DNA from: Xestospongia bergquistia
Taxonomy: Eukaryota > Porifera > Demospongiae > Haplosclerida > Petrosiidae
Assembly: GCA_963965975.1 (NCBI GenBank)
Contig: OZ014412.1
Location: 12,662,849-12,726,848 of the forward strand
DNA: 64,000 bases
Direction: 5' to 3'
Below, piece after piece: positions 10,881-44,050 of this stretch. Numbering within the stretch: position 1 is the stretch's first letter; every line of letters begins with the position of its first letter. The notes under the pieces were generated by a model. That model made no database searches. It was not told where the DNA came from and saw nothing but the letters and a program-made list of their open reading frames with translations. The position numbers and the translations under genes are program-made.

Positions 10881-11450
10881 AAGGACTCTATGGGACTAAC
10901 TAAATAAACTGTTATTAACAGTTTAGTAAGTTGGTTTACATGAAGACTCTAAAGTCTTTAAATTAAAGACTTTAGAAGGTTTAGACTATTGAGTGAAGTT
11001 CATAAATTAAACAGCTCAGTCTAAAGGACTCTATGGGACTAACTAAATAAACTGTTGTTAACAGTTTAGAAAGTTGGTTTGTATTAACACTCTAAAGTCT
11101 TTAAATAAAAGACTTTAGAAGGTTTAGACTATTGAGTGAAGTTAATGAAGTAAACAGCTCAGTCTAAAGGACTCTATGGGACTAACTAAATAAACTGTTA
11201 TTAACAGTTTAGTAAGTTGGTTAGCATTAAGCCGCTAAAGTCTTTAAATTAAAGAGTTTAGAAGGTTTAGACTATTGAGTGAAGTTAATAAAGTAAACAG
11301 CTCAGTCTAAAGGACTCTATGGGACTAACAAAATAAACTGTTATTAACAGTTTTGTAAGTTGCTTTGCCTTAACACTCTAAAGTCTTTAAACTAAAGACT
11401 TTAGAAGGTTTAGACTATTGATAAAAGTTAACAAAGTAAACAGCTCAGTC

Positions 11451-20800: not shown

Positions 20801-22844
20801 TTGCAGTGAAGAAAGTAAACAATTCCGTCTAATGGACTCTAAGGCACTAACTAAATGAATTGTTATTAACAGTTTAGTAAGTTGGTTTGGATTACACTCT
20901 AAAGTCTTTAAATTAAAGACTTTAGATGGTTTAGACTATTGACTGAAGTTAATAAAGTAAACAGCTCAGTCTAAACGACTCTATGGGACTAACTAAATAA
21001 ACTGTTATTAACAGTTTAGTAAGTTGGTTTGCATTAACACTCTAAAGTCTTTAAATTAAACACTTTAGATGATTTAGACTATTGAGTGAAGTTAACAAAG
21101 TAAACAGCTCAGTCTAAAGGACTCTATGGGACTAACTAAATAAACTGTTATTAACAGTTTAGTAAGTTTGTTTGTATTAACACTCTAAAGTCTTTAAATT
21201 AAAGACTTTAGATGGTTTAGACTATAGATTGAAGTTAACAAAGTAAACAGCTCAGTCTAATTGACTCTATGGGACAAACTAAATGAACTGTTATTAACAG
21301 TTTAGTAAATTTTTTGCATTAACACTCTACAGTCTTTAAATTAAAGACTTTAGATGATTTAGACTATTGAGTGAAGTTAATAAAGTAAACAGCTCCGTGT
21401 AATGGACTCTATTGGACAAACTAAATGAACTGTTATTAACAGTTTATTAAGTTGGTTTGCATTAACACTCTAAAGTCTTTAAATTAAAGACTTTAGAAGG
21501 TTTAGACTATTGAGTGATGTTAATAAAGTAAACAGCTCCGTCTAAAGGAATCTATGGGACTAACTAAATAAACTGTTATCAACAGTTTAGTAAGTTGGTT
21601 TGTATTAACACTCTAAAGTCTTTAAATTAAAGACTTTAGAAGGTTTAGACTATTGAGTGAAGTTAATAAAGTAAACAGCTCAGTCTAAAGGACTCTATGG
21701 GACTAACTAAATAAACTGTTATTAACAGTTTAGTAAGTTGGTTTACATTAACCCTCTAAAGTCTTTAAATTAAAGACTTTAGAAGGTTTAGACTATTGAG
21801 TGAAGTTCATAAATTAAACAGCTCAGTCTAAAGGACTCTATGGGACTAACTAAATAAACTGTTATTAACAGTTTAGTAAATTGGTTTGTATTAATACTCA
21901 AAAGTCTTTAAATTAAAGACTTTAGAAAGTTTAGACTATTGATTGAAGTTAACAAAGTAAACAGCTCAGGCTAATGGACTCTAAAGGACTAACTAATTGA
22001 ACTGTTATTAGCAGTTTCGTAGGTTGGTTTGCATTAACACTCTAAAGTCTTTAAATTAAAGACTTTAGATGGTTTAGGCTATTGATTGAAGTTAACAAAG
22101 GAAACAGCTCAGTCTAATGGACTCTATGGGACTAACTAAATGAACTGTTATTAACAGTTTAGTAAGTTTGTTTGCGTTAACACTCTACAGTCTTTAAATT
22201 AAAGACTTTAGATGATTTAGACTATTGAGTGAAGTTAATAAAGTAAAAAGCTCAGTGTAATGGACTCCATTGGACTAACTAAATGAACTGTTATTGACAG
22301 TTTAGTAAGTTGGTTTGCCTTAACACTCTAAAGTCTTTAAATTAAAGACTTTAGAAGGTTTAGACTATTGAGTGAAGTTAATAAAGTAAACAGCTCAGTC
22401 TAAAGGACTCTATGGGACTAACTAAATAAACTGTTATCAACAGTTTAGTAAGTTGGTTTGTATTAACACTGTAAAGTCTTTAAATTAAAGACTTTAGAAG
22501 GTTTAGATTATTGAGTGAAGTTAATAAAGTAAACAGCTCAGTCTAAAGGACTCTATGGGACTAACAAAATAAACTGTTATTAACAGTTTAGTAAGTTGTT
22601 TTGCATTAACACTCTAAAGTCTTTAAATTAAAGACTTTAGAAGGTTTAGACTATTGATTGCAGTGAACAAAGTAAACAACTCAGTCTAATGGACTCTAAG
22701 GCACTAACTGAATGAATTGTTATTAACAGTTTAGTAAGTTTGTTTGCATTACACTCTAAAGTCTTTAAATTAAAGACTTTGGATGGTTTAGACTATTGAC
22801 TGAAGTTAATAAAGTAAACAGCTCAGTCTAAAGGACTCTATGGG

Positions 22845-22885
22845 ACTAACTAAATAAACTGTTATTAACAGTTTAGTAAGTTGGT
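22845..22885. repeat. Dyad 2: 41-bp imperfect inverted repeat with perfect 21-bp core
   Basis: The core, 22855-22875 (monomer 55-75), is TAAACTGTTA, one base T, then TAACAGTTTA: perfect 10-bp arms. Extending outward to 22845-22885 gives 20-base arms that match at 17 of 20 positions. One of the three mismatches would be a G:T wobble in single strands. The TGAACTG and TGAATTG subfamilies lose one or two pairs of the core. Centre variants are frequent (GTTATCAAC, GTTTTTAAC, GTTGTTAAC), leaving the stems intact or shortened by one pair. Confidence 0.9.
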
Positions 22886-22898
22886 TTGCATTAACACT

Positions 22899-22925
22899 CT
22901 AAAGTCTTTAAATTAAAGACTTTAG
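22899..22925. repeat. Dyad 1: 27-bp palindrome, 13-bp arms (reference copy)
   Basis: The left arm CTAAAGTCTTTAA and right arm TTAAAGACTTTAG are exact reverse complements separated by one base (A, monomer position 112). The element is present in almost every monomer and is the most eye-catching conserved stretch of the unit. Variants often change only the centre base: T in the ATTTAAAG form (for example near 6820 and 11511) or G in the AAGTTAAAG form (for example near 33644 and 44692). Arm changes also occur (CTTCAG, TTAATGAC, TTAAACTAAAG). A symmetric site of this size could bind a homodimer or extrude a cruciform, but no protein is implied by sequence alone. Confidence 0.93.
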
Positions 22926-22929
22926 AAGG

Positions 22930-22975
22930 TTTAGACTATTGATTGAAGTTAACAAAGTAAACAGCTCAGTCTAAA
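22930..22975. repeat. Dyad 3: inverted repeat straddling the monomer boundary
   Basis: TTTAGACT at monomer 130-137 is the reverse complement of AGTCTAAA at 25-32 of the following monomer. GAG at 141-143 can also pair with CTC at 22-24, leaving ATT as a bulge and about 21 nt as the loop. In this reference copy the last base is T, so the inner GAG:CTC helix is incomplete; most GAGTGAAG copies have it. In copies with CTAATGG the outer pair is lost. It is weaker than dyads 1 and 2. Confidence 0.7.
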
Positions 22976-28930: not shown

Positions 28931-29186
28931 GTTTAGACTATTGAGTGAAGTTCATAAAGAAAACAGCTCAGTCTAAAGGTCTCTATGGGACTAACTAAAT
29001 AAACTGTTATCAACAGTTTAGTAAGTTGGTTTGTAGTAACACTTTAAAGTCTTTAAATTAAAGACATTAGAAGGTTTAGATTATAGATTGAAGTTAATAA
29101 AGTAAACAGCTCAGTCTAAAGGACTCTATGGGACTAACTAAATAAACTGTTATTAACAGTTTAGTAAGTTGCTTTGCCTTAACACT

Positions 29187-42250: not shown

Positions 42251-42866
42251 TGAAGTTAATAAAGTAAACAGCTCAGTCTAAAGGACTCTATGGGACTAAC
42301 TAAATAAACTGTTATTAACAGTTTAGTAAGTTGGTTTACATTAACAGTCTAAAGTCTTTAAATTAAAGACTTTAGAAGGTTTAGACTATTGAGTGAAGTT
42401 AATAAAGTAAACAGCTCAGTCTAAAGGACTCTATGGGACTAACAAAATAAACCTTTATTAACGGTTTAGTAAGTTGCTTTGCTTAAACGCTCTCAAGTCT
42501 TTAAATTAAAGACCTTAGAAGGTTTAGACTATTGATTGAAGTGAACAAAGTAAACAGCTCAGTCTAATGGACTCTAAGGCACTAACTAAATGAATTGTTA
42601 TTAACAGTTTAGTAAGTTGGTTTGCATTACACTCTAAAGTCTTTAAATTAAAGACTTTAGAAGGTTTAGACTATTGAGTGAAGTTAATAAAGTAAACAGC
42701 TAAGTCTAAAGGAGTCTATGGGACTAACTAAATAAACTGTTATTAACAGTTTAGTAAGTTGGTTTACATTAACACTGTAAAGTCTTTAAATTAAAGACTT
42801 TAGAAGGTTTAGACTATTGATTGAAGTTAGCAAAGTAAACAGCTCAGTCTAAAGGACTCTATGGGA

Positions 42867-42962
42867 CTAACTAAATAAACTGTTATTAACAGTTTAGTAA
42901 GTTGGTTTGTATATCTAACTAAATAAACTGTTATTAACAGTTTAGTAAGTTGGTTTGCATTA
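42867..42962. repeat. Truncated monomer with 95-bp deletion (first copy)
   Basis: GTTGGTTTGTAT at 42901-42912 runs directly into ATCTAACTAAATAAACTG at 42913. The two CTAACTAAATA landmarks that should be 143 bp apart are at 42867 and 42915, only 48 bp apart, so 95 bp are missing, including dyad 1 and dyad 3. Two copies of dyad 2 are brought within 48 bp. The downstream side carries the GGGTCTAAC-type sequence, so the deletion probably joined two different subfamily members. Confidence 0.92.
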
Positions 42963-44050
42963 ACACTCTAAAGTCTTTAAATTAAAGACTTTAGAATGTT
43001 TAGACTATTGAGTGAAGTTAATAAAGTAAACAGCTCAGTCTAAAGGACTCTATGGGTCTAACTAAATAAACTGTTATTAACAGTTTAGTAAGTTGGTTTG
43101 CATTAACACTCTAAAGTCTTTAAATTAAAGACTTTAGAAGGTTTAGACTATTGAGTGAAGTTAACAAAGTAAACAGCTCAGTCCATTGGACTCTCTGGGA
43201 CTAACTAAATGAACTTTTTTTAACAGTTTAGTAAATTGGTTTGCATTAACACTCTAAAGTCTTTAAATTAAAGACTTTATAAGGTTTAGACTATTGAGTG
43301 AAGTTAATAAAGTAAACAGCTCAGTCTAAAGGACTCTATGGGACTAACAAAATAAACTGTTATTAACAGTTTAGTAAGTTGGTTTGCATTAACACTCTAA
43401 AGTCTTTAAATTAAAGACTTTAGAAGGTTTAGACTATTGAGTGAAGTTAATAAAGTAAACAGCTCAGTCTAAAGGACTCTATGGGACTAACAAAATAAAC
43501 CGTTATTAACAGTTTAGTAAGTTGCTTTGCCTTAACGCTCTAAAGTCTTTAAATTAAAGACTTTAGAAGGTTTAGACTATTGATTGAAGGGAAGAAAGTA
43601 AACAGCTCAGTGTAATGGACTCAAAGACACTAAGTAAATTAATTGTTATTAACAGATTAGTAAGTTGGTTTGCATTACACTCTAAAGTCTTTAAATTAAA
43701 GACTTTAGAAGGTTTAGACTATTGAGTGAAGTTAATAAAGTAAACAGCTCAGTCTAAAGGACTCTATGGGACTAACTAAATAAACTGTTATCAACAGTTT
43801 ACTAAGTTGGTTTGTATTAACACTCTAAAGTCTTTAAATTAAAGACTTTAGAAGGTTTAGACTATCGAGTGAAGTTAATAAAGTAAACAGCTCAGTCTAA
43901 AGGACTCTATGGGACTAATTAAATAAACTGTTATTAACAGTTTAGTAAGTTGGTTTACATTAACAGTCTAAAGTCTTTAAATTAAAGACTTTAGAAGGTT
44001 TAGACTATCGAGTGAAGTTAATAAAGTAAACAGCTCATTCTAAAGGACTC
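42962..44050. repeat. Satellite linking segment between unit B and E copy 2
   Basis: About seven or eight monomers. GGGTCTAAC and CTCTCTGGGACTAAC with GTTTTTTAACAG units resemble those inside units A and B (36.5-37.0 and 40.9-41.2 kb). A GTGTAATGGACTCAAAG unit with AAGGGAAG near 43588-43665 and a GTTTACTAAG unit near 43798 (compare 38038) follow. No single constant offset covers the segment. Confidence 0.65.

Follow-up and report, generated by a model that had tools for sequence, protein, structure and literature searches.

A nested palindrome in a 143-bp satellite of the sponge Xestospongia bergquistia

Introduction

What keeps a long palindrome in the unit of a sponge satellite: a protein that reads it, the copying of the array that carries it, the pairing of its own arms, or the chance symmetries of AT-rich DNA? 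The question is raised by the window, the whole stretch of 64,000 nucleotides analyzed here, which lies at 12,662,849–12,726,848 of contig C2 of Xestospongia bergquistia. An earlier note on this DNA described three inverted repeats (dyads) in a tandem 143-bp unit and suggested that they could form cruciforms or hairpins or present symmetric protein sites. The genome comprises 146,460,797 bases in 21 contigs: 15 of 5.4–28.2 Mb, five of 23–98 kb and C21, of 18,997 bases, which is the mitochondrion. C21 encodes a complete COX1 once TGA is translated as tryptophan. Its first 10 kb hold 12 tRNA genes, on a single strand throughout, which suits a demosponge better than a cnidarian. For Xestospongia muta, the accessible part of PMC12398682 gives 15 chromosomes, a mitochondrion of 18.99 kb and a genome of 158.52 Mb; the chromosome lengths differ.

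The satellite array of the window

A 143-bp satellite occupies positions 1–63944 of the window on the plus strand, in a single orientation (929 forward orientation words vs 0 reverse) and with a TRF period of 143. Circular alignment of the window yields 450 rows, 444 of them nearly complete monomers (exactly 143 bases in 360 and 142 in 78), with a mean identity of 0.954 to the consensus. Window base 22801 is taken as unit position 1, so that one monomer (unit positions 1–143) runs from 22801 to 22943 on the plus strand and the next starts at 22944. The identity between monomers is flat with distance (0.916–0.923 over lags 1–60), and thus the window has no fixed higher-order repeat. Twins of at least 98% identity are found within 60 units for 51% of the window monomers, which indicates local block duplication.

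Several units in the window are irregular. Copies of 125 bp have lost 18 bp at 11423, 12263 and 13531, a 166-bp unit at 29089 contains a 23-bp insertion that duplicates part of dyad 1, and at 42822–42967 a 48-bp stretch holding dyad 2 is duplicated. The window consensus contains no CG at all. Unit positions 95–96 are CG in the old family and CA in the window consensus, a change that is possibly due to decay of a methylated CG.

Distribution and age of the satellite in the genome

The central 27 bp of dyad 1, searched through the whole genome with up to two mismatches, match 37,194 forward and 37,788 reverse sites, and the reversed control matches none. Because this 27-mer is nearly its own complement, the forward and reverse sites mostly coincide. 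The sites amount to at least about 5.3 Mb of satellite, or 3.6% of the genome. The cut-off is passed by 98% of 444 monomers in the window, 98% of 340 on C2, 94% of 137 on C3, 82% of 94 on C4, 72% of 134 on C1 and 60% of 25 on other chromosomes; the true copy number is therefore higher than the site count.

Matches occur on all 15 chromosome-size contigs (C1–C15), with C14 represented by three pattern hits, and among the matches listed they mostly form one internal zone per contig. For instance, among these matches the zones extend at least from 12.276 to beyond 12.81 Mb on C2 (16.1 Mb), from 4.44 to 5.26 Mb on C5 (8.9 Mb) and from 2.37 to 3.10 Mb on C15 (5.4 Mb). Stray matches off the main zones are found on C9 at 3.43 and 4.11 Mb (single hits 1–1.6 Mb away from the main cluster), on C1 at 1.55 and 5.88 Mb and on C4 at 9.06 Mb. 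About three old-type copies make up the stray locus L001 (C1:1.545 Mb), far from the main zone, and those at C1:5.88 Mb and C4:9.056 Mb are short tracts or single hits. In 600-bp samples from C5–C7 and C9–C15, satellite was present in eight of ten; the other two, L061 (C13) and L062 (C14), are other DNA, though they lie inside zones.

The copies differ in age. Identity to the window consensus is 0.81–0.85 at the left edges of the zones on C1, C2 and C3 and in minus-strand copies at a patchy boundary on C4, 0.90 in five plus-strand copies at the same boundary, 0.89–0.96 in interior 10-kb pieces and 0.86–0.97 in eight small samples. Mean pairwise identity is 0.81–0.82 at the C1, C2 and C3 edges vs 0.86–0.93 in seven interior groups. 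Hence, at the edges sampled, namely the left-hand edges on C1, C2 and C3 and the C4 boundary, the copies are older and more divergent, and the interior is homogeneous. Such a gradient of age from edge to interior is usual for centromeric satellites. The window is the homogenized interior of a satellite carried by every chromosome-size contig, mostly in one internal zone each among the matches listed. Judged from sequence, the 143-bp repeat is a centromere-type satellite, and we infer that its zone is either the centromere or flanking heterochromatin.

Other observations were made in and around the zones. A 47-bp variant of the satellite recurs at roughly regular spacing among the matches listed, at 139–147 kb on C4, 152–175 kb on C15 and 205–215 kb on C13, as if very large block duplications had grown the arrays; on C6 its spacing among the matches listed is less regular (65–152 kb). 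At C6:3.155 Mb and C6:3.199 Mb (L050–L053), about 0.3 Mb from the first C6 satellite match listed, there are COX1-like pieces with internal stops, which are probably nuclear copies of mitochondrial DNA. At C2:13.50 Mb (L018) two adjacent copies of a region resemble a retroelement and include a reverse transcriptase frame.

Dyads of the unit compared with shuffled sequence

Dyad 1, at 22898–22926, is a perfect palindrome of 29 bp with 14-bp arms and one central base. Nested in it are two 11-bp palindromes of the form TAAAGWCTTTA, TAAAGTCTTTA at 22900–22910 (axis 105) and TAAAGACTTTA at 22914–22924 (axis 119), with 14 bp between their centers, so that it holds four TAAAG half-sites. It had previously been described with perfect 13-bp arms at unit positions 99–125; the palindrome is present there (22899–22925), and its arms are in fact 14 bp long. 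Dyad 2, at 22848–22882, pairs 15 of 17 positions around a perfect 10-bp core (22855–22875), and direct reading over unit positions 45–85, where it had been placed, gives the same perfect core and 17 of 20 pairs. In the circular consensus, the best ungapped dyad is centered on axis 112 (98–126) with a score of 14, against a maximum of 13 among 2000 dinucleotide shuffles, and the second is centered on axis 65 (48–82) with a score of 11, against a second-best maximum of 9. The comparison with dinucleotide-shuffled sequence that the earlier note had proposed thus places dyads 1 and 2 far beyond the shuffles, with 0 of 2000 reaching either.

The third dyad, said to run from unit position 130 to position 32 of the next unit (22930–22975), falls within chance in the window family. 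The third non-overlapping ungapped dyad of the unit scores 4, which 99.85% of shuffles reach, and the segment from 127 to 47 (64 nt) folds at -4.5 kcal/mol in the window family, a value equalled by 331 of 1000 shuffles. Dyad 3 was therefore rejected as a feature of the window. For the same segment in other families, shuffles fold as well in 5 of 1000 cases (C4 family) and 56 of 1000 cases (C2-edge consensus).

The dyads had also been thought to cover all but about 29 of the 143 positions. Some excess is there, since the span of the three best dyads is reached by 2.55% of shuffles; its extent is smaller than supposed, at 87 of 143 positions. Nor is the picture of a unit built almost wholly of dyads supported: in six satellite 10-kb pieces 38–41% of the sequence lies in exact arms at least 5 bp long, vs 34–35% in four Markov resamples and 19–32% in five flanking pieces. 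The density of short dyads (arms of at least 5 bp, gap of at most 20) shows a modest rise, with 0.56–0.61 in the satellite, 0.44–0.48 in the resamples and 0.24–0.42 in flanking DNA. Arms of at least 10 bp number 65–84 per 10 kb in the satellite, 1–2 in the resamples and 1, 1, 1, 2 and 16 in the flanking pieces, where the piece with 16 (L022) has internal repeats. L022 also contains a frame with an SRCR domain. The proposed spacing of dyad centers by one third of the unit is unsupported: circular self-identity is 0.27 at lag 47 and 0.31 at lag 48, and the best lag, 45, has 0.43, which 2.5% of shuffles reach. A 48-bp ancestral trimer as the source of such a spacing was rejected by the same measure.

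Strand switches in the arrays

The solid satellite stretches examined, 164 kb in the window plus ten pieces of 10 kb, contain a switch of strand in 2 of 11 cases, L010 and L012, and the others keep one orientation. A switch on C2 is at 12,307,577. The switch in L010 is centered exactly on dyad 1, with the left flank of the dyad on both sides, and that in L012 falls in the right part of dyad 2. As a reference, the identity to the wrong flank never exceeds 0.47 in 249 ordinary window dyads. A first search pattern for switches centered on dyad 1 marked nine places, three of which are true switches (L010, L070 on C11 and L073 on C13) and six ordinary dyads. A second pattern marked 12 places, and among the eight examined there were no switches; L082 is a dyad with its left flank deleted. 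Of 16 sites retrieved, the 13 other than L070, L073 and L082 (L067–L069, L071, L072 and L074–L081) have the dyad in ordinary orientation, and the adjacent flanking bases extend the palindrome because the search patterns select for such flanks. Arrays can switch strand, and three of the switches pivot on the dyad-1 axis, with assembly error possible. Three pivots at one axis (L010, L070 and L073) are suggestive; enrichment is not claimable from these counts.

Conservation of dyad 1 and its likeliest role

Dyad 1 coincides with the most conserved part of the unit. In the window, the most conserved 29-mers start at unit positions 98–100 and 104–108 (the top eight of 143, with 98 seventh), and in 56 edge monomers they start at 97–102 (the top six). 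Conservation in the window is 0.975 in dyad 1 vs 0.948 outside dyads 1 and 2, a modest excess that is inflated by the shared ancestry of the copies. Of 20 group consensuses, 16 have the dyad-1 arms paired 14 of 14. Those of the C1 edge, C7, C11 and C12 do not, and the C7, C11 and C12 consensuses were built from 2, 3 and 4 monomers, respectively. At the center, the base changes from group to group: A in the C2, C3 and C9 samples and in C1 L021, G in the C4 interior, C5, C6 and C15, and T at the edges and in C1 L020, C7, C10, C11, C12 and the dispersed L001. Over the 20 consensuses 44 positions vary, of which three are among the 28 dyad-1 arm positions (P 0.008), and over the 10 well-sampled groups 1 of 19 variable positions is in the arms (P 0.09). 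Conservation at dyad 1 is of the sequence. The core of dyad 2 is perfect only in the window family (C2, C1 L021 and the C3 and C9 interior) and has 7–9 of 10 pairs elsewhere, so dyad 2 is family-specific. Dyad 1 is strong and real, dyad 2 is real and specific to a family, and in other respects the repeat is an ordinary centromere-type satellite.

The likeliest role of dyad 1, put forward tentatively, is that of a symmetric protein site. This reading fits because dyad 1 is the most conserved 29-mer region and because its arms are kept while the central base varies. Dyad 1 would then be a putative sequence-specific site of a symmetric (dimeric or tetrameric) DNA-binding protein, recurring once per roughly nucleosome-length unit, and may phase or mark the chromatin of the array. 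The reversal of strand at its axis would be a by-product of its symmetry. Dyad 2 would be a weaker element, variable from one family to another; dyad 3 would be no feature of the window family.

Ranked second, and quite possible, is passive inheritance, by which the dyads were present in the founding sequence and have been carried along by homogenization with no function of their own. The consensus of the C2 edge differs from that of the core at 11 positions, and by hand count the changes balance, three gaining a pair and three losing one. Old or dispersed copies (z of -6.95 at the C3 edge and -8.25 in L001, whose consensus of two monomers has the best fold of the 20 groups) fold no less strongly than the window family (-5.55). 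The block duplications seen in the window, the imperfect dyad-2 core outside the window family and the lack of covariation described below also suit passive inheritance. It accounts less well for the retention of both dyad-1 arms across families while the central base changes, and for dyad 1 being the best-conserved stretch in two sets, the window and the edge.

Tests for selected base pairing

Unlikely, by comparison, is the proposal that the dyads are kept because extruded hairpins or cruciforms draw in centromere proteins or chaperones. Such a role has been proposed for other centromeres (accessible parts of PMC8997354 and PMC9070824), and the monomer does fold well: the comparison with shuffles proposed in the earlier note gives z of -5.66 and -5.23 for DNA and -5.17 for RNA, and in each case none of 200 shuffles folds equally well. 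The abundance of long arms in the satellite and the strand switches at the dyad-1 axis also agree with it. The substitutions in dyads 1 and 2 argue against it. In the window, 290 single changes fall in dyad 1, with 5 double changes where 3.8 are expected and no compensating ones; dyad 2 has 694 single, 18 double (15.9 expected) and 7 compensating. The paired fraction of dyad 1 is 0.870 vs 0.866 in shuffled columns for 56 edge or dispersed monomers and 0.948 vs 0.947 for 1065 core monomers, and that of dyad 2 is 0.706 vs 0.697 and 0.785 vs 0.786, respectively. In these two sets of distinct monomers, which leave out L003, L005, L007, L009, L019 and the L026 copies on the plus strand (several being loci that overlap those included), the compensated cells of both dyads are within the shuffle range. 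The outer pairs of dyad 3 do favor pairing in the core, with 22 compensated cells where 40 shuffles average 13.8 and reach at most 21, but clonal copies could explain this excess.

Mutations that correct the palindrome weigh in the same direction as the absence of covariation. Within 18 bp of axis 112 they rank 247 of 286 axes in 992 core monomers, with no excess, and the same all-axes control ranks them 286 in C4, 237 in C1 L020 and 286 in the edge set, each of 286 axes. When the range is widened to 25 bp, they rank 3 of 286 in the core set, vs 281, 166 and 266 in the C4, C1 L020 and edge sets; as a conjecture, common polymorphisms at a greater distance from the axis would account for the core rank. 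For dyads 1 and 2, selected base pairing was rejected for showing no covariation above shuffled columns, and hairpin-templated mutation at the dyad-1 axis was rejected by the all-axes control (within 18 bp). A selected cruciform or hairpin is thus not favored for either dyad, and the tests address selection rather than formation. As the covariation test illustrates, a satellite monomer with a strong fold score need not have a selected structure.

Chance symmetry in an AT-rich repeat explains dyad 3 in the window family and most short dyads, but for dyads 1 and 2, never reached in 2000 shuffles, this reading is hardly credible and was rejected.

Candidate reader proteins

The domain CENP-C_C was not found in a six-frame one-domain search, a kind of search that can miss it. 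The CENP-B_N model matches 28 places, 6 of them with an internal stop; it also matches 2 of 14 control genomes, both bacterial, and is thus not specific. At C1:23.88 Mb (L066, 1477–3102) an open frame of 541 residues combines CENP-B_N, HTH_Tnp_Tc5 and DDE_1, and by this domain content it is pogo-like, with no link to the 143-bp satellite. The CENP-B box has the motif TTCGNNNNANNCGGG. A scan of the window found no TTCGNNNNANNCGGG on either strand, and the dyad-1 27-mer has no matches in the viral and prokaryote collections searched. A more specific proposal, which we regard as a long shot, is that the sponge centromere is phased or specified through the nested palindrome, with four half-sites per unit, a dedicated symmetric reader and the same palindrome acting as the pivot of array flips.

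Comparison with known systems

The sponge satellite resembles alpha satellite, as described in the accessible part of PMC8997354, in its nucleosome-length AT-rich unit, its internal zone on most contigs among the matches listed, its homogeneous interior with divergent edges and its local block duplications. Unlike alpha satellite, the window has neither a CENP-B box nor a fixed higher-order repeat.

Short dyads (<10 bp) occur at several centromeres and have been proposed to act in CENP-A deposition, and enrichment in dyads is limited to the Y centromere in D. melanogaster, according to the accessible parts of PMC8997354 and PMC9070824. Going by the same parts, the sponge array shares with the dyad-rich centromeres of Kasinathan and Henikoff the presence of dyad symmetries in putative centromeric DNA. 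It differs from them in having one dyad with perfect 14-bp arms where theirs are <10 bp, and its short dyads are only modestly denser than those of resampled DNA.

Arrays of macro-dyads are known from Tribolium and are stated to be documented only in that genus (accessible part of PMC13081366). As in TmSat1 and TmSat2 of Tribolium madens, described in that part of the source, orientation in the sponge reverses inside putative (peri)centromeres, in some cases at a defined point of the unit. In T. madens the inversion sites are highly conserved and present in thousands of copies, whereas the sponge has three verified dyad-1-centered switches and one elsewhere in the unit. Satellites of Trichogramma brassicae and Tribolium brevicornis, in the same excerpt, also have inverted repeats inside the monomer, with arms of about 80 bp and 470 bp, respectively, compared with 14 bp in the sponge.

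Among the search results listed, judged by title and the start of the abstract, no sponge centromeric satellite was found. By word search, the accessible text of the genome papers searched, on sponges or early animals, mentions centromeres and not satellites, and the words sponge, Amphimedon and Porifera are absent from PMC4053949.

Significance

Sponges diverged close to the base of the animal tree. With copies on all 15 chromosome-size contigs, the satellite can serve directly as a probe and as a ChIP target for a sponge centromere. Macro-dyad arrays, as the strand switches suggest, exist outside Tribolium too, in a sponge. If the centromere were indeed phased or specified through the nested palindrome, sponges would possess a centromere satellite that is read by its sequence and has no relation to the CENP-B box.
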